In this document: piece by piece, positions 1 to 22,783 of the stretch
How positions within the stretch are numbered: the first letter of the stretch is position 1
Layout: each line of letters begins with the position of its first letter
DNA from: Candidatus Rokuibacteriota bacterium
GTDB lineage: Bacteria; Methylomirabilota; Methylomirabilia; Rokubacteriales; CSP1-6
Length of the DNA: 64,000 nt
Direction: 5' to 3'
NCBI GenBank assembly: GCA_003220435.1
Contig: QHSL01000066.1
Location: 1-64,000 of the forward strand
The notes under the pieces: generated by a model
What the model saw: only the letters and a program-made list of their open reading frames with translations
Databases searched by the model: none
Told to the model about the DNA's origin: nothing
Made by a program: the position numbers and the translations under genes

Positions 1-311
1 AGGTCCTGTACTTCAAGGACTTCGCCTCGGGCGCCATGATCGAGTCCGTCGTCCGCCGGGCCAAGAAGCTCGCCCTCAAGCGCTACATCGGTCGCGGCGA
101 GAAGGGCATCATGGTCGACGACCTGCTGACCGCGGTCCGCGAAGAGTTCAAGGAGAACGAAGACCTGCCCAACACCACCAACCCCGACGACTGGGCGAAG
201 ATCGCCGGCAAGAAGGGCGAGCGTATCGCCTTCGTCAAGCTGCTGACGAGCGAGATGCCGAGTCAGCCACCGAGCATCGAGCGCATCGTCGCCACCGGGC
301 AGTATCTCTAG
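1..311 (+). CDS. arc: Proteasome-associated AAA ATPase (Mpa/ARC), C-terminal fragment
   Basis: The gene enters from the left edge, so only the last 103 codons or so are visible (open frame from base 3). Mpa/ARC is the hexameric ATPase that unfolds pupylated proteins and threads them into the bacterial 20S proteasome. The visible part matches the end of its AAA domain (FASGAMIE...[10 protein letters not shown]) and finishes in TGQYL. The terminal GQYL tail is the docking signature that opens the proteasome gate, as in mycobacterial Mpa. Family assignment rests on this tail and the flanking helices. In actinobacteria dop, pup and the prc genes lie downstream of the ATPase; here the next gene is a convergent dehydrogenase, so any partners must lie upstream or elsewhere. 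Confidence 0.88.
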
Positions 312-326
312 GTACGCCCGCCCGAT

Positions 327-7570: not shown

Positions 7571-8451
7571 GCGAGGTGCCTCTTGAAGAAAGCGATCGTC
7601 CGCTCCCAGGCCAGCTTGGCCGACGGTTCGTGGTAACGCGGCGTCGAGTTGTTGTGAAAACCGTGCTGGGTTCCGGGATACATGTGCATCTCGTACTGAA
7701 CGCCGCTCGCCTTCAGCGCCCCCTCGAAGGCCGGCCACATCGTGTTGATGCGCTCGTCGCTCTCGGCGTACTGGATCAGCAGGGATGCCTTGATGTCCGA
7801 CACTCTCGTGGTCTCGGCCGCCGCGCCGTAGAACGGGACGGCCGCTTTCAGGTCGGCGCCGAGCGTGACCGCCAGGAAGTTGGTCGTCCCGCCGCCCCAG
7901 CAGAAGCCCGTGACCCCGAGCTTGCCAGTGGACAGCGCGTGCGCCTTCAAGAAGCGCGCGCCGTTGACCATGTCCGTGCGCAGCTTGCCCTGGTCGAGGG
8001 TGGCCTGGAGGGTCCGGCCGTCGTCGTCGTTGCCCGGATACCCGCCGACGGGCGCCAACCCATCGGGGGCGAGGGCCAGGAACCCCTCGGTGGCGACTCG
8101 CCGGGCCACGTCCTCGATGTAAGGATTGAGCCCCCGGTTCTCGTGGACGACCAGAGCCGCGGGGAACGGCCCCTGCGCATTCGGCTGCACCAGGTAGCCA
8201 CGCATGGTGCCCGATGTGCCGCCGGGCGACGGGTAGGCTACGTAGCGGGCCTTGATCCGCTGGTCGGTGAAGGAGATCGTCTGGGCCAGCGCGTAGCGGG
8301 GCAACAGCGCCTCCGCCATGGCCAGCGCCGACACGCCGCCGATCGTCAGCGCGCCGGCCCGCTGCAGGAACTCGCGCCGGTCGATGCCTCCGTGGCAGTA
8401 CTCGTCGTAGAGATCGAAGACGCGCTGGTCGATTTCGCTCTGGGTCAGCAT
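7567..8451 (-). CDS. Dienelactone hydrolase family protein with Tat-like signal
   Basis: The 294-residue alpha/beta hydrolase has the dienelactone hydrolase triad: nucleophile Cys in GFCWGG (C184), Asp in AESDERIN (D232) and His in TQHGFHN (H263). Family members open enol-lactones from aromatic degradation. The N-terminus carries DRREFLQRAG followed by a hydrophobic segment and ALAQ, consistent with Tat export, though the 30 or so residues before it are long for a signal. GGAGGAGG lies 6 nt before the ATG. It is the first gene of the coupled operon ending in the UGSC selenoprotein. A TAGAAT box at 8479-8484 (minus) may be its -10. Confidence 0.92.
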   Translation of the reverse strand: MLTQSEIDQRVFDLYDEYCHGGIDRREFLQRAGALTIGGVSALAMAEALLPRYALAQTISFTDQRIKARYVAYPSPGGTSGTMRGYLVQPNAQGPFPAALVVHENRGLNPYIEDVARRVATEGFLALAPDGLAPVGGYPGNDDDGRTLQATLDQGKLRTDMVNGARFLKAHALSTGKLGVTGFCWGGGTTNFLAVTLGADLKAAVPFYGAAAETTRVSDIKASLLIQYAESDERINTMWPAFEGALKASGVQYEMHMYPGTQHGFHNNSTPRYHEPSAKLAWERTIAFFKRHLA

Positions 8452-8506
8452 GGCTCAACCTCCTCCGCTCCAGGCGGCATTCTAGCTCAAGGTCGCGCCG
8501 GACGCC

Positions 8507-8535
8507 TTGACAGGGCCGCTCACGCGGACTAGCTT
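8507..8535 (+). promoter_or_regulatory. Candidate promoter for the gene at 8631
   Basis: TTGACA (8507-8512), a 17-nt spacer and TAGCTT (8530-8535) face the plus-strand gene starting at 8631. It overlaps the control region of the divergent hydrolase operon. Confidence 0.5.
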
Positions 8536-8630
8536 CTCAAGCCGGAGGACGCCGCGACGATCCAGCATACGTTGATCTCCCGTACGCGCAAGGAAGTGAA
8601 GCGGCGCGCCAAGTCGCGCTGAGGTAGCCG

Positions 8631-9230
8631 ATGAACACGCAGAGAATTTCCAGGATCGTTGGCGGCGTCGTGGCCGCGGCCGCGCTGTCGGTCGTGGTGA
8701 TGGTGGCGTGGTCGAACATGAACCGGTCGGATCCCTCCCCCTCCTCACCGCTGACCGAGGGGCCGGTGCTCGGGGATCTGACAGGCTACGTCGGGCGAGT
8801 CGACCAGAAGGCGCGGACGGTCGAGGTCTCCGAGGACCGGCTCGGCCAGCGCCCGGTCACGATGACCGTGACCGATGACACATCGATCACGGTGCGCGGC
8901 CAGCCGCGTGGCCTCCGTGACCTCACGAAGGATCTGCCGGTGCGGGCGTTCTACGAGGTCCGGAACGACGTGAGGTACGTGACCAGGATTCAGGTCGTCA
9001 CGGAGAACGCCTCGCCGCCTTCACCGGCGGCTCGGCAATCGGCCACCTTCAACACCGCATCAGCTCCGGCGCCGGCACCACCCATCGCGCCGGCACCGCC
9101 CTTCGCACCGGCGCCCGTGGCCGAAGCGGCAGCGCCGCCGCCGCAGACGGTCTCGGCCGCTCGCCCGGTCGCTACCGACGCCGGCGACGGCAGCGCAGCA
9201 GTCGACTGGCTCCTGTCGCGCCGGCGCTGA
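8631..9230 (+). CDS. Membrane-anchored hypothetical protein with Pro/Ala-rich tail
   Basis: The 199-residue protein starts with a positively charged N-terminus and one hydrophobic helix (residues about 9-29), so it is anchored in or exported across the inner membrane. Residues 45-125 form a beta-rich domain (GYVGRVDQKARTVEVSEDRLGQRPVTMTVTDDTSITVRG) resembling small OB-like or DUF-type periplasmic domains that contain a 'dispersed standard-value' pattern. Residues 135-175 are an Ala-Pro linker, typical of proteins spanning the periplasm or wall. I do not recognise a family. GAGGTAG precedes the ATG. Confidence 0.7.
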   Translation: MNTQRISRIVGGVVAAAALSVVVMVAWSNMNRSDPSPSSPLTEGPVLGDLTGYVGRVDQKARTVEVSEDRLGQRPVTMTVTDDTSITVRGQPRGLRDLTKDLPVRAFYEVRNDVRYVTRIQVVTENASPPSPAARQSATFNTASAPAPAPPIAPAPPFAPAPVAEAAAPPPQTVSAARPVATDAGDGSAAVDWLLSRRR

Positions 9231-9332
9231 GTGGATCCCCCCGCCGCCCGCTGAGACCGTCGCGCGGCATCCTGCTGCCTCCGCCCCCAGGGCGCTCGCG
9301 ACGAACACCCTGAGAGCGGCCGCAGACGTCGA

Positions 9333-9923
9333 TTACGACGGCGTCGCGAAGAAGGCGGGGCAGGTCGTTGGATTCAGCGCCGTGAAGGACTCCGTGATTG
9401 ACGGGTTCTCCTTGTGGAGCTGAATGTTGCCGCCACCGGGACCGGTGCCGCCTAACGTGTCGTTCGAATCGTGCAACGTGTTATAGACGGTCACGCCGCC
9501 CTGGCTCAGCTTGATGACGAACTCGTCGTCGACGCCTGGCTCGCCGACGTCTTTGGCCTTGACGGCCCAATCGACGTCACCGAACTGGTTCGTCCTGGCC
9601 GTGCCGCAAATGATGCGGGTCCCGGTCGGCTGGTGTGTCTTGGGGTCAGTGCTCGTGTCTCCGCCGTCGATGTACGCCGTGATGGTGAGCCAGTGGACGT
9701 TCAGGCCCGTGCCGTGGTCGTGGTACTCGAGATGACCCCACAGCCCGTGCCCGTCTCCCCCTGGCCTGCATGAGCCACCGATGGCGAAGGTCCCCTTCGC
9801 GCCCGAGTCGCGAACAATGAAGCCGCCACCCGTCAGGAAGTCGCATCTGACCCAGGCGCTGGCGGGGTTACCGGCGGCGAGCGCCAACGCCGCTATTCCA
9901 AGTACGCTGATGAGCTTACGCAT
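9333..9923 (-). CDS. Secreted protein, resembles post-COAP-1-type domain proteins
   Basis: The 196-residue protein has a clear Sec signal (MRKLISVLGIAALALAAGNPASA, cleavage after about residue 23). The mature part begins VRCDFLTGGGFIV and contains YHDHGTGLNVHWLTITAYI, GTRIICGTARTN and a VKAKDVGEPGVDDEFVIKLS segment. This beta-rich pattern resembles a domain found after 'choice-of-anchor' regions in surface proteins, which I give as a resemblance only. Two Cys near the N-terminus and one in CGTAR could form disulfides outside the cytoplasm. The ATG was chosen at the signal peptide with GGAGGAAG just upstream; the frame also stays open further 5'. Confidence 0.7.
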   Translation of the reverse strand: MRKLISVLGIAALALAAGNPASAWVRCDFLTGGGFIVRDSGAKGTFAIGGSCRPGGDGHGLWGHLEYHDHGTGLNVHWLTITAYIDGGDTSTDPKTHQPTGTRIICGTARTNQFGDVDWAVKAKDVGEPGVDDEFVIKLSQGGVTVYNTLHDSNDTLGGTGPGGGNIQLHKENPSITESFTALNPTTCPAFFATPS

Positions 9924-9984
9924 CGTTCTTCCTCCGCTCGCGTCAAGACGGTTCGCTGGTAGTCTCAAGGAGAGGTCCTGGCGC

Positions 9985-10635
9985 CTAGTAGGAGGCCCGC
10001 AGCGCCTGGGCGCTCCCGCCGCTGCGGCCGGCCTGCGCGGACGCGACCACCACGTCCGCAACGCCGGAGACGATCGCGTGAAGCGCGTTCACCACCATGG
10101 TGCCGTCCGACCCCACTGACTGTTCGTTGATGATCAGCACGCCTCCGGCAATACCGATCGTCTGGTTCGGGTCTCCGGTCACGGGAATCGGGATACCGTT
10201 GATCGCGAGGCCGCCGATGTTGGAAACGGCAGAGGCGCCGTCCGCGACCGCGAGTGCCCGTGACATGACGAAGTCGGCGCCGATGCTCGTCCCGGCGACG
10301 TTCAGGGCGAGGGCAGCGAGCGAGGCCTCGGAGTCGATTTGATCCGGGTAGCCGATCGTGACCGCGTGGAGAACCTCCCCCGCGACAAGGGACCCGACAC
10401 TCCCTGTCAACGACGAAGCGCCGAGAGCGTCACTGGTCCCGGCCACGAGAGTCCCGGTGCCTGCCAGCACCGCCGTCGTGCCGAGCAGGGTCCCGGTGAT
10501 GGTGCCCGTCGTCCCCGTAACGGTGTCGATCAGGCCGCCGAGTTGAGCCTCGCTGGCTGCTGGCCATACCAGCAGAGCCACGATCGTCGCGGCGACCGCG
10601 ACGACACCTGTGCGATAGAAAACTGTGTGACCCAT
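9985..10635 (-). CDS. Secreted protein resembling choice-of-anchor P family
   Basis: The 216-residue product has a Sec signal peptide (hydrophobic residues 10-30 ending ASEA) and then a low-complexity Gly/Thr/Leu segment (TVTGTTGTITGTLLGTT). The domain from about residue 75 to 205 has the repeated motif of choice-of-anchor P proteins: SLAALALNVAGTSIGADFV, GGLAINGIPIPVTGDPNQTI, and a closing TMVVNALHAIVSGVADVVVASAQAG. I see no C-terminal sorting signal, so it may be released rather than anchored. GGAGG 9 nt before ATG fixes this start over an earlier in-frame one. It is separated by 61 nt from the secreted protein at 9333-9923, and both may be cotranscribed. Confidence 0.75.
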   Translation of the reverse strand: MGHTVFYRTGVVAVAATIVALLVWPAASEAQLGGLIDTVTGTTGTITGTLLGTTAVLAGTGTLVAGTSDALGASSLTGSVGSLVAGEVLHAVTIGYPDQIDSEASLAALALNVAGTSIGADFVMSRALAVADGASAVSNIGGLAINGIPIPVTGDPNQTIGIAGGVLIINEQSVGSDGTMVVNALHAIVSGVADVVVASAQAGRSGGSAQALRASY

Positions 10636-11225
10636 TCCTGAACCTCCATGCGATCCGTTGTCGTTGGTGGGCGCTCCGCTCGCCTGGCCTATGGCGAGCG
10701 ACTCCATGAGCGCGCCGGTGATCGCGCCGGTTGCGCAGTGAGCTGGAGTCCTCCTTCCCGCGCTCGGCGTCTGTCTTGTGCATCAAGATACGGCGGCCGG
10801 CATAAAGAACAATTGCGAGAACCACTGAATTTCGCCCAAGATTTCTAAGGAACTGTAGGTGAGGGATTTGCTGAGCGCCAGATGGCGGCGGGACCGACCG
10901 GAATGCGTGTGAAGATTTCCGGAATTCCACCCGGGTCGCCATCCTCAGATGACGAGCGCCACCAGAAGAAGACCTGATCGTCTGAACATGTGCTGGCCGA
11001 TGCCCGCCACACGCCAGCCGTTCGGCCTGCGCGATGCAATCCGGACGGAGGGCAGCTCGGCCCCCGATCCGAGCGGACGCGGGGGCAGGCCGCGTTGCCG
11101 AGGCCGAGGCAGCATGCTACCGTCCGAACGTGACTGCCGCGAACGTGGTGCGTCGGTGCCGCGGTCGGCGCGCCGAGCGCGGAGACCGCGTCGTCGTCAT
11201 CCTCGGGTGACGGGCGAGGAAGCGC
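10636..11225. other. 590-bp divergent intergenic region
   Basis: The region lies between the minus-strand secreted protein and the plus-strand histidine kinase. A locally AT-richer patch (about 10775-10860) could hold promoters for either side, but I find no good -35/-10 pair or sigma-54 (-24/-12) site. Frames open here carry no recognisable domain and look like noise. Confidence 0.5.
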
Positions 11226-12755
11226 GTGCGCCTCAGCGTCCGGCACAAGCTCACCCTTCTGAGCGCGCTGGTCATCCTGGTCGTCTCCTCGGGGTTCACG
11301 TGGGTCAACCTCGTCCTTGCGCGCCGGGCAATCGAAGAAGATCTGAGGACGCGCGCGATCGTCTACGCGCGTGAGGTGGCCGCCGCCATCGGCGGCCGCC
11401 GCGAGCTCGAGCGCGGTCCCGAGCTCACCCGGCTGATCGCGCGCCTCCTCGAGATCCGCCCCACCGTCCTCCAGTTGGACATTCTCGCCTTCGGGCCCGA
11501 GGGGGCGACCGTCGTCGCCACCAACGAGCCGACCGTCCGGCTGCCGTTCAGTCGGCGCGACGCCGAAGAGGTGCAGGCGGGCCGCGTTGTCTCGCGCGCA
11601 ATCCCCGCCGACGCCGGCGACCGTCGAGAGGTGATGGCCCCCATTACCCTCGAGGGCGCGGTGGTCGGTGCGGTGGCGGTGAAATTCTCTGCGCGGCGCG
11701 CCGAGGAGCTCACGGGGCGGATCCGATTGTGGGCGCTCACGCTGGCCGCGGTGTCGCTGGTGCTCACGGGGCTGTTGATGAGCGTGGCGATCCAGGTCGT
11801 CGTGGACCGTCCGATCCGCCGATTCATGGACGCGATCTCAACCGCCGCCGACGAGGGCGTGCCGGGCACGGTTGCGGTGACAACGACGGACGAGTTCGGC
11901 GTCCTCGCTCGGCACTTCAACGAGATGGTGTCGCGCATCGGTCGGTTCGGCGAGGAGCTCCGGACGCGCATCGCCGAGGCCACCGGCGAGCTCGACCGGC
12001 GGTATCAGCAGGTCGAGCGGCTCAACGCGCTGCTCTTCGAGATGCAGCGCCGGCTCGGGCACGCGGAGCGGCTGGCTCTCAGCGGGCGGGTCATGGCGGA
12101 GGTGGCCCACGAAGTCGGCACGCCTCTGCACTCGGTCGCGGGCCATCTCGAGCTGCTCCGCAAGGACCTGCCCGCCGCTCTGGTGTCCGATGACGTCGCG
12201 CGCCGCCTCGCTGTCATCGAGGCCCAGGTCGCGCGCGTCATCGAGATCATCGGCCGGCTCCTCGATGCCACGCGGCGGGCCCCCGGAGCGCCGAGCGCAG
12301 TCGACCTCAACGATCTGGTGCGGGATACCGCCTTGCTGGTCCGCCCGGGGCTCGCCAGCGCCGGGCTCGATCTCGACGTCCGCGCCGAGGCCGCCCTGCC
12401 CGCAGTGCTCGGCCAGCGGGATCAGCTCCAACAGGTGGTTCTCAACCTCCTGACGAACGCGATCGACGCCACGCCGTCCGGCGGACGGATCGAGGTGACG
12501 ACCCGCTCCCGGCCGGCCCGGGCGGAGGTGGAGATCGCGATCGCCGATACCGGCGTCGGTATCTCGTCGGCGGATCGCAAGCACATCTTCGAGCCCTTCT
12601 TCTCGACGAAGGAAACCGGAGGCGGCACCGGGCTCGGCCTGTTCATCACGGCCGAGATCGTGCGCGAGCACAAGGGCAAGATCGAGCTCGAGAGCGACGA
12701 GAAACAGGGGAGCACCTTCCGCGTCATCCTGCCCGCGGTGCGGAGTGGAGCGTGA
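11226..12755 (+). CDS. Membrane sensor histidine kinase (HAMP-HisKA-HATPase)
   Basis: The 509-residue kinase has a first transmembrane helix at residues 9-31, a periplasmic sensor domain of about 135 residues with no recognised fold, a second helix near 169-191, and a HAMP linker to about residue 245. The phosphoacceptor is H295 in EVAHEVGTPLHS. The ATPase domain shows the N box (NLLTNAID, N411), the G1 box DTGVGIS (441-447), the F box FEPFFSTK and the G2 box GGGTGLGL. It should autophosphorylate and pass phosphate to the regulator encoded next. The start is GTG. Its stop overlaps the regulator start as GTGA. Confidence 0.95.
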   Translation: MRLSVRHKLTLLSALVILVVSSGFTWVNLVLARRAIEEDLRTRAIVYAREVAAAIGGRRELERGPELTRLIARLLEIRPTVLQLDILAFGPEGATVVATNEPTVRLPFSRRDAEEVQAGRVVSRAIPADAGDRREVMAPITLEGAVVGAVAVKFSARRAEELTGRIRLWALTLAAVSLVLTGLLMSVAIQVVVDRPIRRFMDAISTAADEGVPGTVAVTTTDEFGVLARHFNEMVSRIGRFGEELRTRIAEATGELDRRYQQVERLNALLFEMQRRLGHAERLALSGRVMAEVAHEVGTPLHSVAGHLELLRKDLPAALVSDDVARRLAVIEAQVARVIEIIGRLLDATRRAPGAPSAVDLNDLVRDTALLVRPGLASAGLDLDVRAEAALPAVLGQRDQLQQVVLNLLTNAIDATPSGGRIEVTTRSRPARAEVEIAIADTGVGISSADRKHIFEPFFSTKETGGGTGLGLFITAEIVREHKGKIELESDEKQGSTFRVILPAVRSGA

Positions 12756-14116
12756 GCGGGCCATCCCCGTTGCTCCTGGTCGCCGACGACGATCAGGTCG
12801 CGCGCGAGCTGCTGGCCGAGGCGCTCGAGCGTGAAGGGTACCGCGTACGCGTCGCCGCCGGCGGCGAGGAGTGCCTTCGCCTGGCCGAGGCCGAGCCCTT
12901 CGACATGGCCCTGGTCGACCTCCGCATGCCCGATCTCGACGGGCTCGGCGTCCTGAAGCGGCTGGCCACGATCCAGCCCGGCCTGCCGGTCGTCATCCTC
13001 ACGGCCTTCGCCACCATCGAGACGGCGATCGAAGCCGTCGCGGCGGGCGCCTCCGACTACCTCTCCAAGCCGTTCCGGATGGAGGAGATCAAGGTCGTCG
13101 CCCGGCGTACCCTCGCCGCGCGACGCCTCGCCAGCGAGAATCTGCAGTACCGGCAAGAGCTCAAGGCGCGCTACGGCTTCGACACCCTGGTCGGCCAGTC
13201 GCACCAGATGGTGGAGATCTACAAGCTCGTTGCGCGCGTCGCCAGTCTCGAGACGACGGTCCTGATCCAGGGGGAGACCGGCACGGGCAAGGAGCTTGTC
13301 GCTCGAGCGATCCACGACGCCAGCGCTCGCGCGGGTCGCCCGTTCGTCGTGGTGGACTGCGCCGCGCTGCCCGAGACACTCTTCGAATCGGAGTTGTTCG
13401 GCCATGAGCGTGGCGCGTTCACGGGCGCGTTCGCCACGCGTCGAGGCCTCCTCGAAACGTCGGTCGGTGGCACGTGCTTCCTCGACGAGATCGGCGAGCT
13501 CACCGCGCCGCTCCAGGGCAAGCTCCTGCGAGCGCTTCAGGAGCGCGCCATCCGCCGCGTCGGTGGGAACGACGCGATCCCGATAGACGTCCGGTTGGTG
13601 GCAGCGACCAACCGCGACCTGCGCAAGCTCGCCTCCGAGGGAGGATTTCGGGACGATCTTTACTATCGGCTGAACGTCGTCACGATCACGGTGCCGCCGC
13701 TGCGCGAGCGGTCGTCGGACATCCCGCTGCTCGCCCTGCACTTCCTCGACACCTTCGCCCACCGGACCGGCCGCCCGGTCAAGCGGCTCGCGCTCGAGGC
13801 GGTCGCGCTGCTCGCCGCCTACCATTGGCCGGGAAACGTGCGCGAGCTCGAGCACGTCATCGAGCGCGCGGTGGCGTTGTCGCCCGCGGAGACGCTCCTG
13901 CCCGACGATTTTCCGCTTCATCTCCGCGAGGAGCCCGACCGCGCCCCTCGGCTCCCGGCGGCCGGGATGACGCTGGAGGACGTGAAGCGCTGGTATGTGA
14001 ACAAGGTGCTGGACGAGGCCGGGGGCAATAAGGTCCGGGCCGCCGAGCTCCTCGGAATCGACCGGCGCACGCTCTACCGAATCCTCGAGCGTCAGGCGAC
14101 CGAGGACGAGGCGTGA
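12752..14116 (+). CDS. Sigma-54-dependent response regulator, NtrC family
   Basis: This 454-residue regulator has three domains in order. The receiver domain carries phosphoacceptor D56 in ALVDLRMPD. The AAA+ domain has Walker A GETGTGKE (174-181), the sigma-54 contact loop GAFTGA (221-226) and Walker B FLDEIGE. A Fis-type helix-turn-helix near the C-terminus reads NKVRAAELLGIDRRTLYRIL. It should activate sigma-54 promoters when phosphorylated by the adjacent kinase. All catalytic motifs are intact. GTG starts overlap at both ends, so kinase, regulator and protease genes form one translationally coupled unit. No target promoter is apparent in the window. Confidence 0.96.
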   Translation: MSGPSPLLLVADDDQVARELLAEALEREGYRVRVAAGGEECLRLAEAEPFDMALVDLRMPDLDGLGVLKRLATIQPGLPVVILTAFATIETAIEAVAAGASDYLSKPFRMEEIKVVARRTLAARRLASENLQYRQELKARYGFDTLVGQSHQMVEIYKLVARVASLETTVLIQGETGTGKELVARAIHDASARAGRPFVVVDCAALPETLFESELFGHERGAFTGAFATRRGLLETSVGGTCFLDEIGELTAPLQGKLLRALQERAIRRVGGNDAIPIDVRLVAATNRDLRKLASEGGFRDDLYYRLNVVTITVPPLRERSSDIPLLALHFLDTFAHRTGRPVKRLALEAVALLAAYHWPGNVRELEHVIERAVALSPAETLLPDDFPLHLREEPDRAPRLPAAGMTLEDVKRWYVNKVLDEAGGNKVRAAELLGIDRRTLYRILERQATEDEA

Positions 14117-14835
14117 AGCGTGCGCTCACGCTGGCGGCCCTGGCTCTCACCGGGGCCGGTTGCGTCTCGCCACCGCGACCTCCTGATCGAGGCGAGCTCA
14201 TCCGCGGCATCCTCACGTCGACGGTACAGCTTCGGTCCGAACGCGACGGGGCCATCCACCGGGCGGCGTCGGGAGTTGTCGTCGCGGCGGATCCTCGGTC
14301 GGACCGTTCGTGGATCATCACCGCGCGGCACTTCGTCGATCCGTCCCCGCCCCATAACATCTACGTTCGGTTGCCGGGTCGCATCGGCGTCACGCCGGCG
14401 ACGCTGGCCTTCGTGAGCCCGGACCGTGACCTCGCCGTCATCGAAGCGAAGTACCTCGACGTCGCCCCCGCTCGCCTGAAGATGGCGGCGAGCCTTGGCG
14501 ACGAGATCCTGGTCATCGCGTTCCCGTGGGGCCAGCGGTTCACCGTGGTGAGGGGTGTCGTCAGTCAGGTCTCCACGCTCGCCAGCATCACCGGACCCGC
14601 ACGGATGGTGGACGCTTCGGTCAGCTACGGATCGAGCGGCGGGGGCGTCTTCGACGCGCAGACCGGTGAGCTGGTTGGGATCGTCGAGAGTTACCGCACC
14701 GCAAAAGTGGCCATCCCCGAGATGAAGGACCGAGTGCTCGAGATCCCGATCGCGGGCGAGACGACGCTGATTTCGGCGCCGGCGATCCTCCGTTTCCTCG
14801 TGGACTCTGGTCTGAGCGACTTTCTGCCGAGATGA
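14113..14835 (+). CDS. Lipoprotein trypsin-like serine protease
   Basis: The 240-residue protein begins with a lipoprotein signal whose lipobox is LTGAGC (C17), so it should be tethered to a membrane outside the cytoplasm. The chymotrypsin-fold triad is visible: His in ITARHFV (H73), Asp in SPDRDLAVIE (D106) and Ser in YGSSGGGVFD (S175). It lacks a PDZ domain, unlike DegP/HtrA. Its GTG start overlaps the regulator stop, tying it to the two-component system. It may process an envelope signal for, or be an output of, that system. The overlap decides the start. Confidence 0.85.
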   Translation: MKRALTLAALALTGAGCVSPPRPPDRGELIRGILTSTVQLRSERDGAIHRAASGVVVAADPRSDRSWIITARHFVDPSPPHNIYVRLPGRIGVTPATLAFVSPDRDLAVIEAKYLDVAPARLKMAASLGDEILVIAFPWGQRFTVVRGVVSQVSTLASITGPARMVDASVSYGSSGGGVFDAQTGELVGIVESYRTAKVAIPEMKDRVLEIPIAGETTLISAPAILRFLVDSGLSDFLPR

Positions 14836-15035
14836 GATTGATGTAGCGGTGGGAGGTTGCATTGTGGCGCTTTGCCACATTGCGGAGGTTCGCCACAGAG
14901 GAGACCGCGCAGCAGGACGCGCTTACACGCCTAACTCTGCGGAAAGACGTCACATCGAAATTCGAGCCACTCGGCACGCCGATTGCTCCATAAGACTGCA
15001 TGTTCGAACTTCACCCCACAGGAGAACGAGACCAC

Positions 15036-15338
15036 ATGAAGAAGGCGCTAGGACTCGCGCTCGCATTGACGCTCGGGCTGACGATCGCTGCTGCCGCCGA
15101 AGAGGCGCAGGGGACGATCCGGATGATCAATCCTGCCGACCACTCGATCGTTCTGGAGAACGGCACCCGACTCTGGGTGGCGGAAGGCCAGTTCGCCAAC
15201 CTCTCGCTCGGTGACCAGATCCAGGCGTCGTACGAGATGAAGGGCGACAAGAAGATGGTCATCCAGCTGGGCCGCCGCCCGCTGGGACTGGATGGCAGCC
15301 GCGACCCCCTGGACTCGCTCCAGGCCGGCGACAACTAG
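15036..15338 (+). CDS. Small exported DUF1344-like protein
   Basis: The 100-residue protein has a Sec signal (MKKALGLALALTLGLTIAAAAEE) and a compact beta-barrel-like domain: GTIRMINPADHSIVLENGTRLWVAEGQ, then LSLGDQIQASYEMKGDKKMVIQL. That layout matches DUF1344-type periplasmic proteins, whose role is unknown. The ATG after AGGAGAACGAGACCAC is preferred over an upstream in-frame ATG at 15000 because the signal peptide starts here. It lies 200 nt after the protease gene and ends before a strong terminator. Confidence 0.78.
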   Translation: MKKALGLALALTLGLTIAAAAEEAQGTIRMINPADHSIVLENGTRLWVAEGQFANLSLGDQIQASYEMKGDKKMVIQLGRRPLGLDGSRDPLDSLQAGDN

Positions 15339-15371
15339 ACACAAGCTCGAACCGCTCGCACTCGATTCACG

Positions 15372-15401
15372 GAGGCCCCGCCGAGGCATCGGCGGGGCCT
15401 C
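15372..15401. terminator. Strong bidirectional hairpin terminator
   Basis: A 13-bp perfect stem (GAGGCCCCGCCGA with TCGGCGGGGCCTC) has a GGCA loop and is followed by GCCGTTTCC. It separates the DUF1344-like gene from the convergent grdE-like gene. Confidence 0.8.
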
Positions 15402-15437
15402 GCCGTTTCCGACCACGACGGCCCGCGCCCGGGTCAG

Positions 15438-16751
15438 CTACTCGCGGCAGCTCAGGCTGCCGAAGCCGTAATGATCGTCGTAGCGCCACGGCGGCGGCAG
15501 CGGCCCGGACGTGGGGAGCGTGGCCCCATCGACGCCGCCGTGGAGGCCGATGGTCGAGCCGCGGCGCACGATCTTCGTCGGCAGGCCGATCACGCGCGAG
15601 ACGGCGGGCGCCTCGGGCACGGCCAGCGTGACGTTCTTGAAGAAGCTCGTGCTCACGATCGCGTCGGCCTCGGGCAGGGGCTCGAGCATCGTGGGCGCGC
15701 CGTCGGTCGCGTCGTCCTCGCTGGTGAGGAAGACGGTCTTGATGCCGAGCCGCTCGCACGCCTGGATGCTCCGGACCACTTCGATGAACTCGTTGCCGCC
15801 CGCGTCCCACGTGACCACCGCGCCCTGCGCGCCGAGCTGCTTGGCGAGCTTGGCGGTTTGATTTGCCATCAGCTGCTTCTCGGTCTGCGTGGTCCATTCC
15901 GTGCGCAGCGAGATCACGCCGAGGAAGTTCCAGTCCCGCCCGTGGCGGCGGTAGAGGTCGAGGAAGAGGGGATTGTTCGCCACGGTCCACGACATAGCGA
16001 ACGCGGTGCGATAGGGCCCGGTGAGCGCGCCATCCAGGATCTCGTTCGGGTGCAGATACCAGGGCGGCGTGAGCTGCGTCAGGCCGTAGGTGGCCGTGCA
16101 GAACGCGGTCGGTGAGCCCGACATCGCCTGTGGCGAATGGACGCACCAGATGTAAACCACGCGCGGGAGCGACGGATCGACCGGTGTGAGCTCGAACACC
16201 TCGCGCTCCGGCGGCGTGAGCGAGCGCACGGCCTCGCCGAGCTGGTCCGAGACCGTCAGCGCGGCCTTGTGCACGGCATAGTTCTTCACCTCTTCGTTCA
16301 GCGTCGAGTCGGGCTCGACGACCAGGCAGAGGTTGACGAGCTTCTGGTAGGGGTACATCTCGCCGTAGGGCCCGGACATGTCCAGATAGGTCTCGACGAA
16401 GTCGCCGCCGGCGTCGTGCCAGTTGACGCTCGACACCTCGACCACGCCCATGCCGGCGAGGCGATGCGTGCGGCCTTCACCGACCGTGGCGATCTCACGC
16501 CCGCAGATGCCGGGATAGCAGACGCCCACGCCCTCTACTTTGATACGCGGCTCGATCACGTCGCGCACCGGCCAGATCCGCGCCGACTCGCCCGGCCGCG
16601 CGATCTCGAGCTCGGCGCTGGCGATTCGTGAATCCTGTCGGACCGCCGCCAGCACGGCGTCGCGATCCACCGTGAGCCGGCCCGCGTCGTAGCGCGTGGT
16701 CCGGCCGAAGGCGATGTCCGTCACCGGGAAGGTGCCCATCTCAAGACGCAT
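15438..16751 (-). CDS. GrdE-like glycine/sarcosine/betaine reductase component B subunit
   Basis: The 437-residue protein aligns along its length with GrdE/GrdG proproteins of clostridial glycine, sarcosine and betaine reductase. Typical segments are MRLEMGTFPVTDIAFG, ARPGESARIWPVRDVIEPRIKVEG, GEGRTHRLAGMGVV, YLDMSGPYGEMYPY and NPLFLDLYRRHGRDWNFLGVI. Component B activates the amine substrate as a Schiff base on a pyruvoyl group made by self-cleavage before a Cys. At the expected place (about residues 246-252) the sequence is GPYRTAF with no Cys, so pyruvoyl formation is doubtful. The start overlaps the end of the grdB-like gene by 11 nt. No grdA, grdC or grdD is present. Confidence 0.85.
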   Translation of the reverse strand: MRLEMGTFPVTDIAFGRTTRYDAGRLTVDRDAVLAAVRQDSRIASAELEIARPGESARIWPVRDVIEPRIKVEGVGVCYPGICGREIATVGEGRTHRLAGMGVVEVSSVNWHDAGGDFVETYLDMSGPYGEMYPYQKLVNLCLVVEPDSTLNEEVKNYAVHKAALTVSDQLGEAVRSLTPPEREVFELTPVDPSLPRVVYIWCVHSPQAMSGSPTAFCTATYGLTQLTPPWYLHPNEILDGALTGPYRTAFAMSWTVANNPLFLDLYRRHGRDWNFLGVISLRTEWTTQTEKQLMANQTAKLAKQLGAQGAVVTWDAGGNEFIEVVRSIQACERLGIKTVFLTSEDDATDGAPTMLEPLPEADAIVSTSFFKNVTLAVPEAPAVSRVIGLPTKIVRRGSTIGLHGGVDGATLPTSGPLPPPWRYDDHYGFGSLSCRE

Positions 16752-18090
16752 GCGCGGCCTCCTCGGTCTTGCCGGGCGTCATCGGGTCGAAGAGCGTCGG
16801 CCCGGGCACGGCGATGGTCAGCGTCTTGAGCGCGGTGGTCACGATGCGCATGCCGAAGGCGTAGTCCTTCTCGGGGCTGAGCGTGGGATCGCCGCACACG
16901 TGCTCGATGCGCGCGCCGCGGATCACGCGATTCGCGCCGGTCGTGAGCGCGAAGTTGTAGATGGCCGAGATCATCCCCACCGGGATTCCCGCTCGCTCGA
17001 TCTCCTTGGCTATCGTTGCGCCGCAACGATTGCAGGTCCCTCAGGTGGCGACGAGCAGCGCGCCGTCCACGCCGCTCGCCTTGAGATCCGCGGCGATGCT
17101 GCGCCCGTGCCCCACCGACACCGCCACCGGCGTGCTCACGCCGGGCAGCGCGTAGATGTGCTCGTGCACGCGGCCGATCTTCCCCTGGCGCTCGAGATCG
17201 CGCAGGAACGAGAGCGGCAGGATGTAGTTCGGGTTGCTGTTGACGATGTGATTGAAGTAGCCGGCGTGATAGGCCTCCCACTCCTGGGGTGAGAGCGACT
17301 CGAGCTCGGCCACCGCGTGCCGGTGATAGCGCACGGCATTCGCCGAGACCTGCTTGTCGGGGTTGCCCTTTCGCACCAGGCCGCCGGTCGTGACCATGGC
17401 GATGCGGGCGCGCGAGAGATCGGCGATGGGCGGGGCGGGGGAGACGCGCTCGGGCGCGGCGTACGGCACCTCCGACCGGTAGGGCCGCCCGTGGAGCTTG
17501 TCGAGGAGCATGTCGAGCGCGCGCTGATACCCCGGACGCCCGCGATCGTGAACGCGGCGCGCGCCCCGGGGCATGTAGCCCTCCACCTCGGCCGAGCCGA
17601 GCGCCTCGCCGCGGCCGAGACGCCGCGCCAGCGGCGCCAGCGCGTCGAGCGCGGCTTGCATGGAGGTGGTCGACGAGCCGGTGGGCACGATGTAGATCCC
17701 GCGGCGGGCGGCCGACGCGCCGGGGTTCTCGGGATGCATCGCGGTGATCGCGGGCACGCGCTGGGCCTGCGCGACCTTGCAGACCAGCGCGCACGCCAGG
17801 CCGTAGCGCCCGGAGCCGAACGCCGGGCCGGCGACGAGCACGTCGGGCTCGAGCCGCGCCAGCTCGGCGGCGATCGCGCGCGAGGCTTCCTCGCCACGCT
17901 CGTTGACGAAGTTGTCGCCGCCGATCAGCGTGGCCTCGACGCGCGCCCCGTCGCCCAGCGCCTTCTCGAGCGCGCGGCCCGGGCCCACGGCGCCGGCCTT
18001 CGCCGCGACGCCGACGTGCGCCTGGTCCTCGCCGCCGATGCCGCCGAAGAACTGGTTCACGTAGTGCACGACGCGCAGCTGACCGCTCAT
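16741..18090 (-). CDS. GrdB-like selenoprotein (glycine/betaine reductase component B)
   Basis: Read through TGA at 17041-17043, this gives 449 residues with selenocysteine at position 350 in VATUGTCNRCGATIAKEIERAG. The UGTC-x-RCG motif is the hallmark of GrdB/GrdF/GrdH, where Sec attacks the Schiff-base substrate. The protein starts VVHYVNQFFGGIGGEDQA, as these selenoproteins do, and continues after the Sec with GMISAIYNFALTTGANRVIRG and GDPTLSPEKD. A SECIS-like hairpin follows the TGA. Gene order is grdB then grdE. In clostridia the complex makes acetyl phosphate during amino-acid fermentation; here the companion subunits are missing, so a different reductive role is likely. Confidence 0.92.
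17012..17040 (-). promoter_or_regulatory. Bacterial SECIS-like element of the grdB-like gene
   Basis: On the minus strand, after UGA and 10 nt, ATCGTTGC pairs perfectly with GCAACGAT around the 3-nt loop GGC. The loop starts 18 nt after the UGA and begins with G, the same geometry as in the UGSC gene. The 10 nt between UGA and stem (GGGACCTGCA) also resemble those of the UGSC gene (GGGTCCTGCT). Confidence 0.78.
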
Positions 18091-18110
18091 GGTGGTGCTC
18101 CTCCCGGGTG

Positions 18111-18134
18111 GATTCTAGCGGAAATGCTAGAATC
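18111..18134. repeat. Perfect inverted repeat between divergent grdB and liv genes
   Basis: GATTCTAGC and GCTAGAATC flank a 6-nt centre (GGAAAT). Each arm also contains a TAGAAT box reading outward, so the element could be an operator, a pair of face-to-face -10 boxes, or both. It is 21 nt from the grdB start and 66 nt from the liv operon start. Confidence 0.6.
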
Positions 18135-18199
18135 CCTCTCGCGCTTTGCGCCGAGACGTTGCCGCCGATTTGCTCACTCTCGAGAGAGGAGTCGCCGTG

Positions 18200-19477
18200 A
18201 TGAAGACTGCGACACGGGTCGTGATCGTGTTCGGAATCCTCGGGCTGGCGCTGGGCGCCGGCCTCGTGCAGGGACAGCAGCCACCGAGCGGCGAGTACAA
18301 GATCGGCGTGCTCGAGCCGCTCACCGGCAATCTCGCGGTCCAGGGGAAGCTGCACGTCGAGGGCTACGAGATCATGCGCGACCTCATCAACACCCGCTTC
18401 GGCGGAGTGATGGGCAAGAAGCTGGTCTTCGCGGTCGGCGACGCCGTCGATCCAACCGCGGCCGCGTCGGAAGCGACCCGGCTGGCCGCGCGCGAGGGCG
18501 TGAAGATCATCACCGGGACGTTCTCCTCCACGCTCTGCGGCGCGGCCAGCGAGGCGGCGGCGCGGCAGAACGTCATCTACTGGGAGACGTCCTGCGTCGA
18601 CCCGCGGCTCACCCGGCGCAATCTCAAGAACGTGTTCCGCACCGAGATCGACGGCACCGGGTTCGGCTGGTACAACATCGAGTTCATCGCCAAGCACCTG
18701 GCCCATCGCCTCGGCAAGAAGACGAACGAGCTCAAGATCGCCTACCTCTCGGAGGACTCCTCCTACGGCCAGAGCGTGACCGAGTCCGCCCGCCAACGCG
18801 CCAAGCAGGAGTTCGGCATGCAGGAGGTCGGGCCCGAGTACTACACGTTCACCACCAACGATCTGACGCCGGTCCTCCTGAAGCTGAAGGCCGCCAACCC
18901 CGACATCCTCCACCACATCTCGCGTGATCAGGACGCCATCCTGTTCTGGCGCCAGGCGCGCGAGCAGAACTTCCAGGTCAAGGCGGTCGTGCACGCCGGC
19001 GCCACCGGCTACGGCAACCCGGGCTTCGGCAAGGCGTTCGGCAACGACGCCAACGGGCCCTTCGCGCTGCTCGAGCCCGGCCCGGGCCTGATCATCGAGA
19101 AGTTCCGGCCAGAAGGCCAGCTGGTCGAGCGCGCGTTCCGCGAAGCGGTGAAGACGAAGACGGGCGCGGACGTGCTCGCGGGCGGACATCAGCTCGCGGG
19201 CGGCGGCCTCTGGGTCCTGAAGCTGGCGCTCGACGCCGCGAAGACCGACGACCTCGACAAGTTCCGCGCCGCCGTCCTGTCGCTCGATCTGCCGGTCGGG
19301 TCCGCCGTCAACGGCTGGGGCGTGAAGTTCGACGAGACCGGGCAGAACTCGAACGCGCGCGTGCAGCACTACATGCTGCAATGGCAGAACGGCTCCCTCG
19401 TCACGGTGTGGCCGGAGGAATTCACGACCCATCGCGCCAAGTGGATTCCGCTCGGTCCCTGGGATCAGCGGAAGTAG
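18200..19477 (+). CDS. livK: Branched-chain amino-acid-type ABC substrate-binding protein (LivK-like)
   Basis: The 425-residue protein has a Sec signal (hydrophobic residues 5-25, then QGQQ) and the type I periplasmic-binding fold of the Leu/Ile/Val family: YKIGVLEPLTGNLAVQGKLHVEGYEIMRDLIN, then GVKIITGTFSSTLCGAASEAAARQNVIYWE and a C-terminal lobe. It should capture a small amino acid, amide or related solute in the periplasm. The ATG was chosen because GAGAGGAG lies 9 nt upstream; the adjacent GTG codon is an alternative. It heads the complete liv operon, and is divergent from the grd genes, so the solute could relate to their substrate. Confidence 0.92.
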   Translation: MKTATRVVIVFGILGLALGAGLVQGQQPPSGEYKIGVLEPLTGNLAVQGKLHVEGYEIMRDLINTRFGGVMGKKLVFAVGDAVDPTAAASEATRLAAREGVKIITGTFSSTLCGAASEAAARQNVIYWETSCVDPRLTRRNLKNVFRTEIDGTGFGWYNIEFIAKHLAHRLGKKTNELKIAYLSEDSSYGQSVTESARQRAKQEFGMQEVGPEYYTFTTNDLTPVLLKLKAANPDILHHISRDQDAILFWRQAREQNFQVKAVVHAGATGYGNPGFGKAFGNDANGPFALLEPGPGLIIEKFRPEGQLVERAFREAVKTKTGADVLAGGHQLAGGGLWVLKLALDAAKTDDLDKFRAAVLSLDLPVGSAVNGWGVKFDETGQNSNARVQHYMLQWQNGSLVTVWPEEFTTHRAKWIPLGPWDQRK

Positions 19478-20359
19478 GTGACCGCTCTTCCGCAGCTGAT
19501 CGTCTCGACGCTGCTGCTGGGCGGCGTCTACGCGCTCATCGCCGTCGGGCTCACGCTGATCTTCGGCGTGCTGCGCGTCGTGAACTTCGCCCACGGCGAA
19601 TTCCTCATGCTCGGCATGTATCTGGCCTTCTGGGCGTTCGCCCTGCTCCACTTCGACCCGTACCTGACGCTGGTGGTGTCGCTGCCGATCTCGTTCGCGG
19701 TCGGCTGGGCGAGCTACCGCGGCGTGATGCGCCCGATCGTCCACGCCTCGCACAACGTGCAGGTGTTCACCACGGTCGGGCTCTCGATCGCGCTCCAGAA
19801 TCTGGCGCTCGTGCTGTTCACGGCCGACGCGCGCTTCGTGCGCACCGACTATTACGCGGTCGTCGTGCGGATCGCCGGCGCCGCGTTCAACGTGGCGCAG
19901 ATCGTGGCGTTCGCCATCGCCGTTGCCCTCACCGCCGGGCTCTTCACGTTCATGCGCTGGTCCTACACCGGCAAGGTGATGCGCGCGACGGCGCAAGATC
20001 GAGACGCCTCCGCGCTCATGGGCATCGACACTGACCGGGTCTACGCGATCACCTGGGCGGTGGGCATCGCCTGCGTCGGCGCCGCCGGGGTGCTGCTGGC
20101 GCCGATCTATCCCGTCTATCCGACCGCCGGCCTGCAGTTCGTGCTGATCGCCTACGTCGCGGTCGTCCTGGGAGGCCTCGGCGACATGGCCGGCGCGCTG
20201 ATCGCCGCGCTGGCGGTCGCCGCGGTCGAGGTGGTGGGCTCGTACACGATCGGCACGGCGTGGAAGGAAGTGCTCTACCTGCTGCTGTTCATCGGGATCC
20301 TCGTGGTGCGCCCCGCCGGGCTCTTCGGCCAGCGTGGCGCCGAGGCGCTCGGCGCGTGA
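19478..20359 (+). CDS. livH: Branched-chain amino-acid-type ABC permease (LivH)
   Basis: The 293-residue inner-membrane protein has about eight hydrophobic helices and the LivH hallmark GLTLIFGVLRVVNFAHGEFLMLGMY in its first third. The EAA-like cytoplasmic loop reads MRATAQDRDASALMGIDTDRVYAITWAVG. GTG is the first codon after the livK stop with no gap. It pairs with LivM to form the channel of the transporter. Confidence 0.95.
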   Translation: MTALPQLIVSTLLLGGVYALIAVGLTLIFGVLRVVNFAHGEFLMLGMYLAFWAFALLHFDPYLTLVVSLPISFAVGWASYRGVMRPIVHASHNVQVFTTVGLSIALQNLALVLFTADARFVRTDYYAVVVRIAGAAFNVAQIVAFAIAVALTAGLFTFMRWSYTGKVMRATAQDRDASALMGIDTDRVYAITWAVGIACVGAAGVLLAPIYPVYPTAGLQFVLIAYVAVVLGGLGDMAGALIAALAVAAVEVVGSYTIGTAWKEVLYLLLFIGILVVRPAGLFGQRGAEALGA

Positions 20360-21327
20360 AGGCCGTCGCGCCGGCCACGGTCGTCTTCCTCTGCGCCGGG
20401 CTCGCGCCGCTCGTCGTGCGCGATGCGTTCCTGCTCGACAGCCTCGTGCTGGTCCTGATCTGGGGCAGCGCGGCGGCGGCGTGGAACGTGGCCGGCGGCT
20501 ACGCGGGCCAGATCTCGCTCGGCCACTCCGCGTTCTTCGGGATCGGCGCGTACGCCGCCGCCCTGATCGTCACCCGATGGGAGCTCTCGCCGTGGCTCGG
20601 CCTCGCCGTCGGCGCCCTGGTGGCGACCGCGATCGGGCTCGTCGTCGGCTACCTCTCGAATCGTCTGCGCGGCCCGTACTTCGTGCTCGCGACCATCGCG
20701 TTCTCGCAGGTGCTGCTCATCGTCGGCAGCCGCTGGCGCGGCTTCACCGCCGGCTCCGAGGGCATCCCGGTCCCGTTCCGCCCCGGGTTCTGGACCCTCG
20801 GCATCGCGGACAAGCGGGTGTGGGTCTGGATCGCGCTGGCCCTCGCGGTTCTCGCCTATCTCGTCCAGCGCTACCTCGACCGGTCGCGCCGCGGCTACCA
20901 GCTGGTGGCGGTGCGCGAGGACGAGGACGCGGCGCTCTCGCTCGGCGTGCCGGCGCGCTGGCTGAAGGTCGCCGCGATCTGCGTCAGCGCTGCGCTCACC
21001 GCCGCCTGCGGCGCGCTGTGGGCTCAATACATCGGCTTCGTCGATCCGTTCTACGTGTTTTCGGTGGACCTGTCGGTGAAGTTCGCGCTGGCGGCCATCA
21101 TCGGCGGCCTCGGCACGGCGCTCGGCCCGTTCCTCGGCGCGGCCCTCATCACGACCGTCGAGACGTACTTGCGCGCCCAGTTCGGCGGCCTCGGCACCGG
21201 GCTCATCGGCATCTACCTGATCGTCTACGGCTGCGCGCTCATCGTGATGGTGCGATGGGTTCCGCATGGCCTCGTCGGGTGGATCGGCGAGGGGCTGCGC
21301 CGGCGCGCCGCGCCGGCGGCTCGATGA
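20356..21327 (+). CDS. livM: Branched-chain amino-acid-type ABC permease (LivM)
   Basis: The 323-residue membrane protein carries the LivM signature WNVAGGYAGQISLGHSAFFGIGAYAAAL and the loop GYQLVAVREDEDAALSLGVPARWLKV. It starts at GTG overlapping the livH stop (GTGA) and its stop overlaps the livG start (ATGA). About nine hydrophobic segments are visible. A longer in-frame upstream extension reads as the wrong phase of livH and is rejected. Confidence 0.95.
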   Translation: MKAVAPATVVFLCAGLAPLVVRDAFLLDSLVLVLIWGSAAAAWNVAGGYAGQISLGHSAFFGIGAYAAALIVTRWELSPWLGLAVGALVATAIGLVVGYLSNRLRGPYFVLATIAFSQVLLIVGSRWRGFTAGSEGIPVPFRPGFWTLGIADKRVWVWIALALAVLAYLVQRYLDRSRRGYQLVAVREDEDAALSLGVPARWLKVAAICVSAALTAACGALWAQYIGFVDPFYVFSVDLSVKFALAAIIGGLGTALGPFLGAALITTVETYLRAQFGGLGTGLIGIYLIVYGCALIVMVRWVPHGLVGWIGEGLRRRAAPAAR

Positions 21328-22046
21328 GCCTCCTTTCCGTCTCCGGCGTCTCCAAGCGCTTCGGCGGCATCGTCGCCAACCGGGGGATCTCGTTCGACGT
21401 GGAGCCGGGCGAGCTCGTGGGCATCATCGGGCCGAACGGCGCGGGCAAGTCCACGCTGTTCGAGGTCATCACCGGCTTCTACCGCCCGGACGAGGGCGAG
21501 GTGAGGCTCGACGGCGCACGGCTCACCGGGCTCTCGCCGGACGTCGTCTGCCGGCGCGGCATCGCGCGCACCTTCCAGAAGCTCCGGCCGTTCCAGGGGC
21601 TCACCGTGCTCGACAACGTGATGGTCGGGGCGCTCACGCGCACGACGGACGTGCGGCACGCGCGCGAGCGGGCGCGCGAGCTGGTGGGGAAGGTCGGGCT
21701 CGCCGAGAAGGCCGAGGCCCACGCCCGCACGCTCTCCACCGGCCAGCGCAAGCGGTTGGAGCTGGCGCGCGGGCTCGCCACCGAGCCGCGCGTCTTGCTG
21801 CTCGACGAGGTCACCGGCGGCGTGGACCAGCGAACGATCCCCGAGCTGGTTCGGCTCGTTCGCAGCCTGCACGCGGGCGGCCTGACGCTGCTGGTGATCG
21901 AGCACAACATGCGGGTGATCACCGCCGTCGCCCAGCGCATCGTCGCGCTCCACCTCGGCGAAGTCATCGCCGACGGCCCACCCGACCAGGTGACGCGCGA
22001 CCGCCGGGTGGTCGAGGCCTATCTAGGCCTGGCGTACGTGCCGTGA
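21324..22046 (+). CDS. livG: Branched-chain amino-acid-type ABC ATPase (LivG)
   Basis: The 240-residue ATPase has Walker A GPNGAGKST, the signature region LSTGQRKRLELARGLA, Walker B VLLLDEV and the switch His in VIEHNM. The variant signature LSTGQ in place of LSGGQ is common in LivG. Note that the usual catalytic-site sequence LDEP is LDEVTGGVD here. It couples ATP hydrolysis to transport together with LivF. The ATG overlaps the livM stop and its stop overlaps the livF start. Confidence 0.94.
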   Translation: MSLLSVSGVSKRFGGIVANRGISFDVEPGELVGIIGPNGAGKSTLFEVITGFYRPDEGEVRLDGARLTGLSPDVVCRRGIARTFQKLRPFQGLTVLDNVMVGALTRTTDVRHARERARELVGKVGLAEKAEAHARTLSTGQRKRLELARGLATEPRVLLLDEVTGGVDQRTIPELVRLVRSLHAGGLTLLVIEHNMRVITAVAQRIVALHLGEVIADGPPDQVTRDRRVVEAYLGLAYVP

Positions 22047-22783
22047 CGCATCCCGCGGCGACTCCCATGCTGACGGTCGAGGGGCTCGACGTCGCCTACG
22101 GCGACTTCCAGGTGCTGTGGGGTGCCGAGCTCCGCGTCGACGAGGGAGAGATCGTCTGCGTGCTGGGCCCGAATGGCGCCGGCAAGTCGACGCTGATGAA
22201 CACGATCTCGGGGCTGGTGAAGCCACGCGCCGGGCGCGTCACGTTCCTCGACCAGCGCGTCGACGGGCTTCCCGCGCACCGCTCGGCGGGACACGGCCTG
22301 GCGCACGTGCTCGAGCGCCGGCGCCTGTTCCCGTTCCTCACCGTGCTCGACAACGTGCTGCTGGGCTCCCACAACCCCCGGGCGCGCTCGCATCGCGCCG
22401 AGACGCTCGAGCGGGTGGAAGCGCTGTTCCCCGTGGTGCGGGTCCGGCGCGCGCAGCTCGCTCACACCCTCTCGGGCGGCGAGCAGCAGATGGTCGCGAT
22501 CGCCCGCGGCCTCATGGCGCGGCCCCGCCTGCTGATGGTCGACGAGCCGTTCCTGGGGCTCGCACCGCAGGTCGCCCGGGACATCGGCCTCCTCCTCCGC
22601 CGCATCCGGGAGGAGGAAGGGATCAGCGTGGTGTTCATCGAGCAGAACGTGGAGGTGGCATTGCGCCTGGCCGACCGCGGCTACGTCCTGGAATCCGGGC
22701 GCACGATCCTCAGCGGCCCATCTGCCGAGCTCCTGCGCTCGTCGGAGGTCAAGCGAATCTTCCTGGGCGACGTCGCGCTCTGA
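22043..22783 (+). CDS. livF: Branched-chain amino-acid-type ABC ATPase (LivF)
   Basis: The 246-residue ATPase has Walker A GPNGAGKST, the C-loop LSGGEQQMVAIARGLM, Walker B LLMVDEP and VFIEQNV at the switch. The pattern LERRRLFPFLTVLDNVLLG is typical of LivF. GTG overlaps the livG stop (GTGA). A downstream in-frame ATG in PMLTVEGLDVAYG is a possible alternative start, eight codons in. This completes the five-gene transporter. Confidence 0.94.
   Translation: MTHPAATPMLTVEGLDVAYGDFQVLWGAELRVDEGEIVCVLGPNGAGKSTLMNTISGLVKPRAGRVTFLDQRVDGLPAHRSAGHGLAHVLERRRLFPFLTVLDNVLLGSHNPRARSHRAETLERVEALFPVVRVRRAQLAHTLSGGEQQMVAIARGLMARPRLLMVDEPFLGLAPQVARDIGLLLRRIREEEGISVVFIEQNVEVALRLADRGYVLESGRTILSGPSAELLRSSEVKRIFLGDVAL

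Follow-up and report, generated by a model that had tools for sequence, protein, structure and literature searches.

The pair of genes at 15438-18090 of the DNA analysed here, which comes from a soil Rokubacterium, raises the question of how a selenocysteine-containing GrdB protein and its GrdE partner can work where the remaining glycine reductase genes are missing, and on which substrate they act. The window, i.e., the whole stretch that was analysed, comprises 64,000 nucleotides (contig QHSL01000066.1, positions 1 to 64,000, assembly GCA_003220435.1). Glycine reductase is regarded as characteristic of anaerobes that ferment amino acids, with a reaction ending in acetyl phosphate. Rokubacteria are assigned by GTDB to the phylum Methylomirabilota. 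For a metagenome-assembled genome (MAG) from the Methylomirabilota, 63 selenoproteins have been predicted before (PMC13188914), and a literature search, conducted mostly outside subscription papers and hence a weak negative, returned nothing on Rokubacteria together with glycine reductase.

The grdB-like gene is encoded on the minus strand at 16741-18090, starting with ATG at 18090 and ending with the stop codon TGA at 16741-16743, and its reading frame yields a protein of 449 amino acids. Over its full length the protein matches PF07355 (382.6 bits, Pfam cut-off 22) and TIGR01918 (418.6 bits, NCBIfam cut-off 65.45), placing it in the family. The TGA at 17041-17043 lies within the motif UGTCNRCG (context LLVATUGTCNRCGATIAKE) and is read as selenocysteine, Sec350, so that the protein carries the UxxCxxC motif that, together with a SECIS element, characterizes GrdB. 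This element directly follows the TGA (17003-17040, minus strand) and consists of a stem of 8 bp and the loop GGC, which begins 18 nt past the TGA; it is the sole Rfam match within the 64 kb (SECIS_4, 41.5 bits, E 3.4e-6). Among 30 distinct relatives the stem covaries, with 16 two-sided changed cells compared to 4.0 in shuffles (0/500), and 92% of the cells are paired vs 18-62% in slid controls. The TGA is retained in every inspected GrdB copy, and the genome itself encodes tRNA-Sec, SelB and SelA, the latter adjoining SelB. The first-pass annotation of a selenocysteine codon followed by a hairpin is thereby confirmed.

The grdE-like gene (15438-16751, minus strand) encodes 437 amino acids and belongs to the Gly_reductase family PF09338 (281.9 bits, Pfam cut-off 22.2). 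The coupling of both genes by an 11-nt overlap, as annotated before, is exact (16741-16751, minus strand), and good Shine-Dalgarno sequences are found upstream of grdB and grdE. Both genes are under purifying selection, with dN/dS values of approximately 0.12 for GrdB and 0.07 for GrdE in comparison with the nearest species. The two genes thus encode a genuine pair of the glycine reductase kind with a selenocysteine. A sequence search of the PDB gave no match among solved structures, and an AlphaFold model (pLDDT 90) gave no whole-fold match (TM approximately 0.2).

Where canonical GrdE has DGAIVSGNCVSACDK, the GrdE of the window has DGALTGPYRTAF, i.e., the Asn-Cys that forms the pyruvoyl group is replaced. 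Asn-Cys was found in none of the window-group GrdE sequences readable at this site, and the clostridial-type GrdE proteins carry SGNC. FarE and the betaine reductase subunit GrdI were also reported to be devoid of the processing cysteines (PMC10838667). Since no pyruvoyl group can be formed, a primary amine is unlikely as substrate, and quaternary amines, ethers and halides fit better.

By profile and motif the two proteins belong to the GrdB and GrdE families, and they stay below the curated cut-off of each characterized subtype. GrdB scores 370.2 bits with TIGR01917, the equivalog model of the glycine-specific enzyme (cut-off 602.2), and 379.6 bits with the betaine model GrdH (cut-off 775); the sarcosine models GrdF and GrdG give 406.6 of 800 and 224 of 780 bits, respectively, FarE gives 127.4 of 675 bits on GrdE, and the D-proline reductase models PrdB and PrdA give 72.8 of 300 and 25 of 700 bits. 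Sequence motifs for glycine (GrdB) and sarcosine (GrdF) were published (PMC9751293). The tested part of the glycine motif, around AHGGxD...TxGNxTxV, is present in 45 GrdB sequences, all of the clostridial (Firmicutes) type. No window-type sequence matches it, and the sarcosine motif was found in none. The absence of the glycine motif and of the pyruvoyl cysteine suggests that the pair probably acts on a substrate other than glycine, in line with the earlier proposal of a betaine-like or other amine or ether substrate.

In comparison to the known systems, the pair shares with clostridial glycine reductase (GrdA, GrdB, GrdE, GrdC, GrdD) the homology of GrdB and GrdE and the selenocysteine motif with its SECIS element, and relatives of the genome also have GrdA and GrdC; it differs by missing the glycine motif, the SGNC site and GrdD, and grdC and grdA are not in the assembly. 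Betaine reductase GrdH/GrdI likewise has a selenocysteine-containing protein B and a partner reportedly without processing cysteines (PMC10838667), but GrdH and the window GrdB, compared by sequence only, are separated by the score given above. GrdG of the sarcosine system GrdF/GrdG is the best-scoring partner model for the window GrdE, yet the scores are far under the cut-offs and the sarcosine motif is absent. Fluoroacetate reductase FarB/FarE of Cloacibacillus is a relative of GrdBE without pyruvoyl cysteines and was proposed to feed a common GrdA; FarB is said to be without CxxC, whereas the window GrdB keeps it. In D-proline reductase PrdA/PrdB the selenocysteine subunit is related to the C-terminal half of GrdB and GrdA is not needed, but this enzyme is pyruvoyl-dependent and the window GrdE has no pyruvoyl-forming cysteine. 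The genome additionally contains two short PrdB-like genes with in-frame TGA (contig C24, 9026-9604, and contig C82, 32030-32644; contexts UPVC and UPNC, listed in that order), which are candidates for further selenoproteins akin to the GrdB C-terminal half, and similar short genes occur in many relatives.

Phylogenetically, a tree of 91 GrdB sequences, calculated quickly without bootstraps and weak in its deeper branches, places the window GrdB in a clade of 22 rows (SH-aLRT 98) with sequences from Rokubacteria, Entotheonella, Chloroflexota, a Thermomicrobiales MAG and one deltaproteobacterium. This clade is separate from the 29-row clade holding the clostridial type (SH-aLRT 99), as the first-pass annotation had suggested to examine, and also from a Rokubacterial paralogue, GrdB2. 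GrdB2 (L070, 8710-10017, and relatives) is encoded next to grdC/grdA and shows the motif UGTSTRCG, in which a serine replaces the first cysteine of the CxxC following selenocysteine throughout the group.

The absence of grdA, grdC and grdD from the window was noted correctly and extends to the whole assembly (147 contigs, 95.5% complete), in which neither GrdA nor GrdC was found, and only one full-length GrdB. It was concluded from this absence that the pair might be a stand-alone reductase; as a type of system this is not supported by the relatives, most of which possess both GrdA and GrdC. GrdA is present in 12 of 57 genomes of the family, all of them with full-length GrdB, i.e., in 12/16 genomes with and 0/41 without full-length GrdB (p 2.6e-9, the genomes being related and the events not independent), and in all seven GrdB-bearing congeners. 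In the relatives a single GrdA is found per several GrdB in a genome, GrdC scores above its cut-off in 15 of 21 GrdB genomes, and three other family genomes (G009, G017, G037) have GrdB without GrdA.

Compact operons of the window type in the order grdB-grdE-grdC-grdA occur in other lineages, namely in Entotheonella (L124) and in G026, G021, L126 and L135, the last with two BE pairs; GrdA and GrdC are also encoded nearby in L125, L129 and L140, and GrdC in L128. GrdA keeps the CxxU motif and GrdC the FabH-like cysteine region. A grd operon elsewhere, which by the first-pass annotation would refute its reading of the pair, exists in relatives and not in the assembly itself, and GrdD is missing even there.

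Some of these loci have neighbours of their own. In a deltaproteobacterial MAG the window-type grdB-E-C-A genes (L129, 2291-5348) immediately follow those of a tripartite tricarboxylate transporter (TctC, TctA), which may point to a carboxylate as substrate, and the grd cluster carries thioredoxin and thioredoxin reductase. Upstream of the double grdBE-grdC-grdA operon (L135, 2725-6737), a CoA-transferase III, an MFS transporter and a CoA-binding/succinyl-CoA-ligase-like protein are encoded, which would fit acetyl-CoA handling. Beside the grd genes of L140 an open reading frame (13816-15171), with a relative in L070, weakly matches the UGSC family. This family has selenoprotein members. Importers of the peptide type (SBP_bac_5) near several grd loci were dropped as a recurrent neighbour, as a rough background count gave no clear excess.

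The pair stands divergent from a liv-type importer on the plus strand (18146-22783), as annotated, composed of a binding protein (18146-19477), two permeases (19478-20359 and 20260-21327) and an ATPase (21266-22783). This association is not conserved: the importer adjoins the pair only here and in G003, the nearest species, and the other congeners have other neighbours, so that it does not identify the substrate. Being limited to two species, this arrangement is weak evidence, and the importer was dropped as a substrate clue. Between the divergent genes a perfect inverted repeat, GGATTCTAGC-N6-GCTAGAATCC (18110-18135), is found in a region with two TAGAAT boxes resembling -10 elements; the repeat is exact only in these two species.

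Where grdC and grdA would be expected is indicated by G003, with the gene order grdE2, grdB2, a DsbA-like gene, others, grdC, an NlpC/P60 gene and grdA. The DNA just before its grdE2 is 91% identical to positions 315-761 of the window, and for the remainder of this 11-kb grd region no orthologue of comparable identity was found in the own assembly; G001, G005, G006, G007 and G015 share this junction. As the window forms the start of its contig (C17), the break in synteny is 315 bp away from the edge of the contig. At the position where congeners have grdE2, the window (1-315, plus strand) holds the end of an unrelated gene, read by us as a putative proteasomal ATPase-like C-terminus. The first 311 bp belong to this gene, which is located on other contigs in congeners, so that a contig end within the grd cluster is ruled out in this simple form, and the cluster may truly have been lost by rearrangement. 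An assembly gap or edge artefact is more likely than loss as the cause of the missing grdC and grdA. A separate variable feature is the stretch 8450-15436 of the window, containing a sensor kinase and a sigma-54-type response regulator (11226-14116); between a dienelactone-hydrolase-like gene and grdE it is missing in several congeners, and it therefore looks like an insertion or variable region.

GrdD is the subunit that forms acetyl phosphate, which acetate kinase would use. No true GrdD was found above the cut-off in 20 GrdB genomes, while the control G130 scored 586 bits; apart from this control, the 21 GrdB genomes gave at most PlsX-like matches of 23-33 bits, or none. Acetate kinase is absent from the own genome and from seven of the 12 GrdA-bearing family genomes and present in the other five (5/12). 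With GrdD missing, the acetyl group would have to leave in a form different from acetyl phosphate, and transfer to CoA would be the simplest route.

In the known scheme the substrate is bound by GrdBE and its carbon is attacked by selenocysteine, after which GrdA and then GrdC receive the two-carbon unit (PMC13188914, PMC10838667). On this basis we somewhat favour the reading that the pair is a protein B module, specific for its substrate, in a system that resembles glycine reductase and has neither pyruvoyl site nor GrdD, and that this module acts on a compound other than a primary amine and feeds GrdA and then GrdC, the acetyl group not leaving as acetyl phosphate. GrdBE would bind a small compound of the type X-CH2-COO(-), such as a quaternary or tertiary amine, an ether, a halide or similar; Sec350 would attack the CH2 group, expelling X; and the selenium-bound two-carbon unit would be handed over to the selenocysteine of GrdA (CxxU). 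GrdC would take up the acetyl group as thioester, from which it would probably leave to CoA. One set of GrdA and GrdC may serve several GrdBE pairs in the genus, and the grdC/grdA cluster would be missing from this MAG through an assembly break rather than through loss.

That grdC and grdA were instead truly lost, and that GrdBE reduces its substrate directly, is unlikely. D-proline reductase PrdAB works without carrier protein, no GrdA or GrdC is found in an assembly of such completeness, the three other genomes without GrdA, the foreign gene at the contig start and the purifying selection on grdB and grdE agree with it; however, GrdA accompanies GrdB in every GrdB-bearing congener, the missing cluster coincides with the contig edge, and PrdAB requires a pyruvoyl group, which the window GrdE cannot form. 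Equally improbable is a protein B resembling that of betaine reductase (GrdHI), with acetyl phosphate still being formed through an unrecognized substitute for GrdD such as PlsX: betaine GrdI reportedly shares the absence of processing cysteines (PMC10838667) and PlsX-like matches occur in most genomes, but these are short and weak, acetate kinase is often absent and GrdH stays at 379.6 against 775 bits.

Still less probable is a redox or detoxifying selenoenzyme, peroxidase-like or a dehalogenase like FarBE, in place of a catabolic module. PMC3091704 cites a paper on GrdB peroxidase activity, and FarBE is a GrdBE relative whose FarE has no processing cysteines (PMC10838667). Against this, the association with the acyl-handling GrdC points to a two-carbon product, the FarE model reaches 127 of 675 bits, and the CxxC of the window GrdB is said to be missing in FarB. 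The protein B module feeding GrdA and GrdC thus stays the preferred reading, and we tentatively extend it to a possible widespread, selenium-dependent pathway of Rokubacteria, Entotheonella and Chloroflexota, for which no description was found in the papers searched. In it, pyruvoyl-free GrdBE would break the C-X bond in acetyl compounds other than primary amines and, via GrdA and GrdC without GrdD, would yield acetyl-CoA and not acetyl phosphate.

The reading as a stand-alone enzyme is corrected by the finding that the absence in a single MAG coincides with a contig edge. Two questions become directly testable, namely which substrate is used and what becomes of the acetyl group when GrdD is missing. 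A branch without pyruvoyl site and GrdD, spread across uncultured soil and marine bacteria, would widen selenocysteine chemistry to other C-X bonds and alter the energy outcome.
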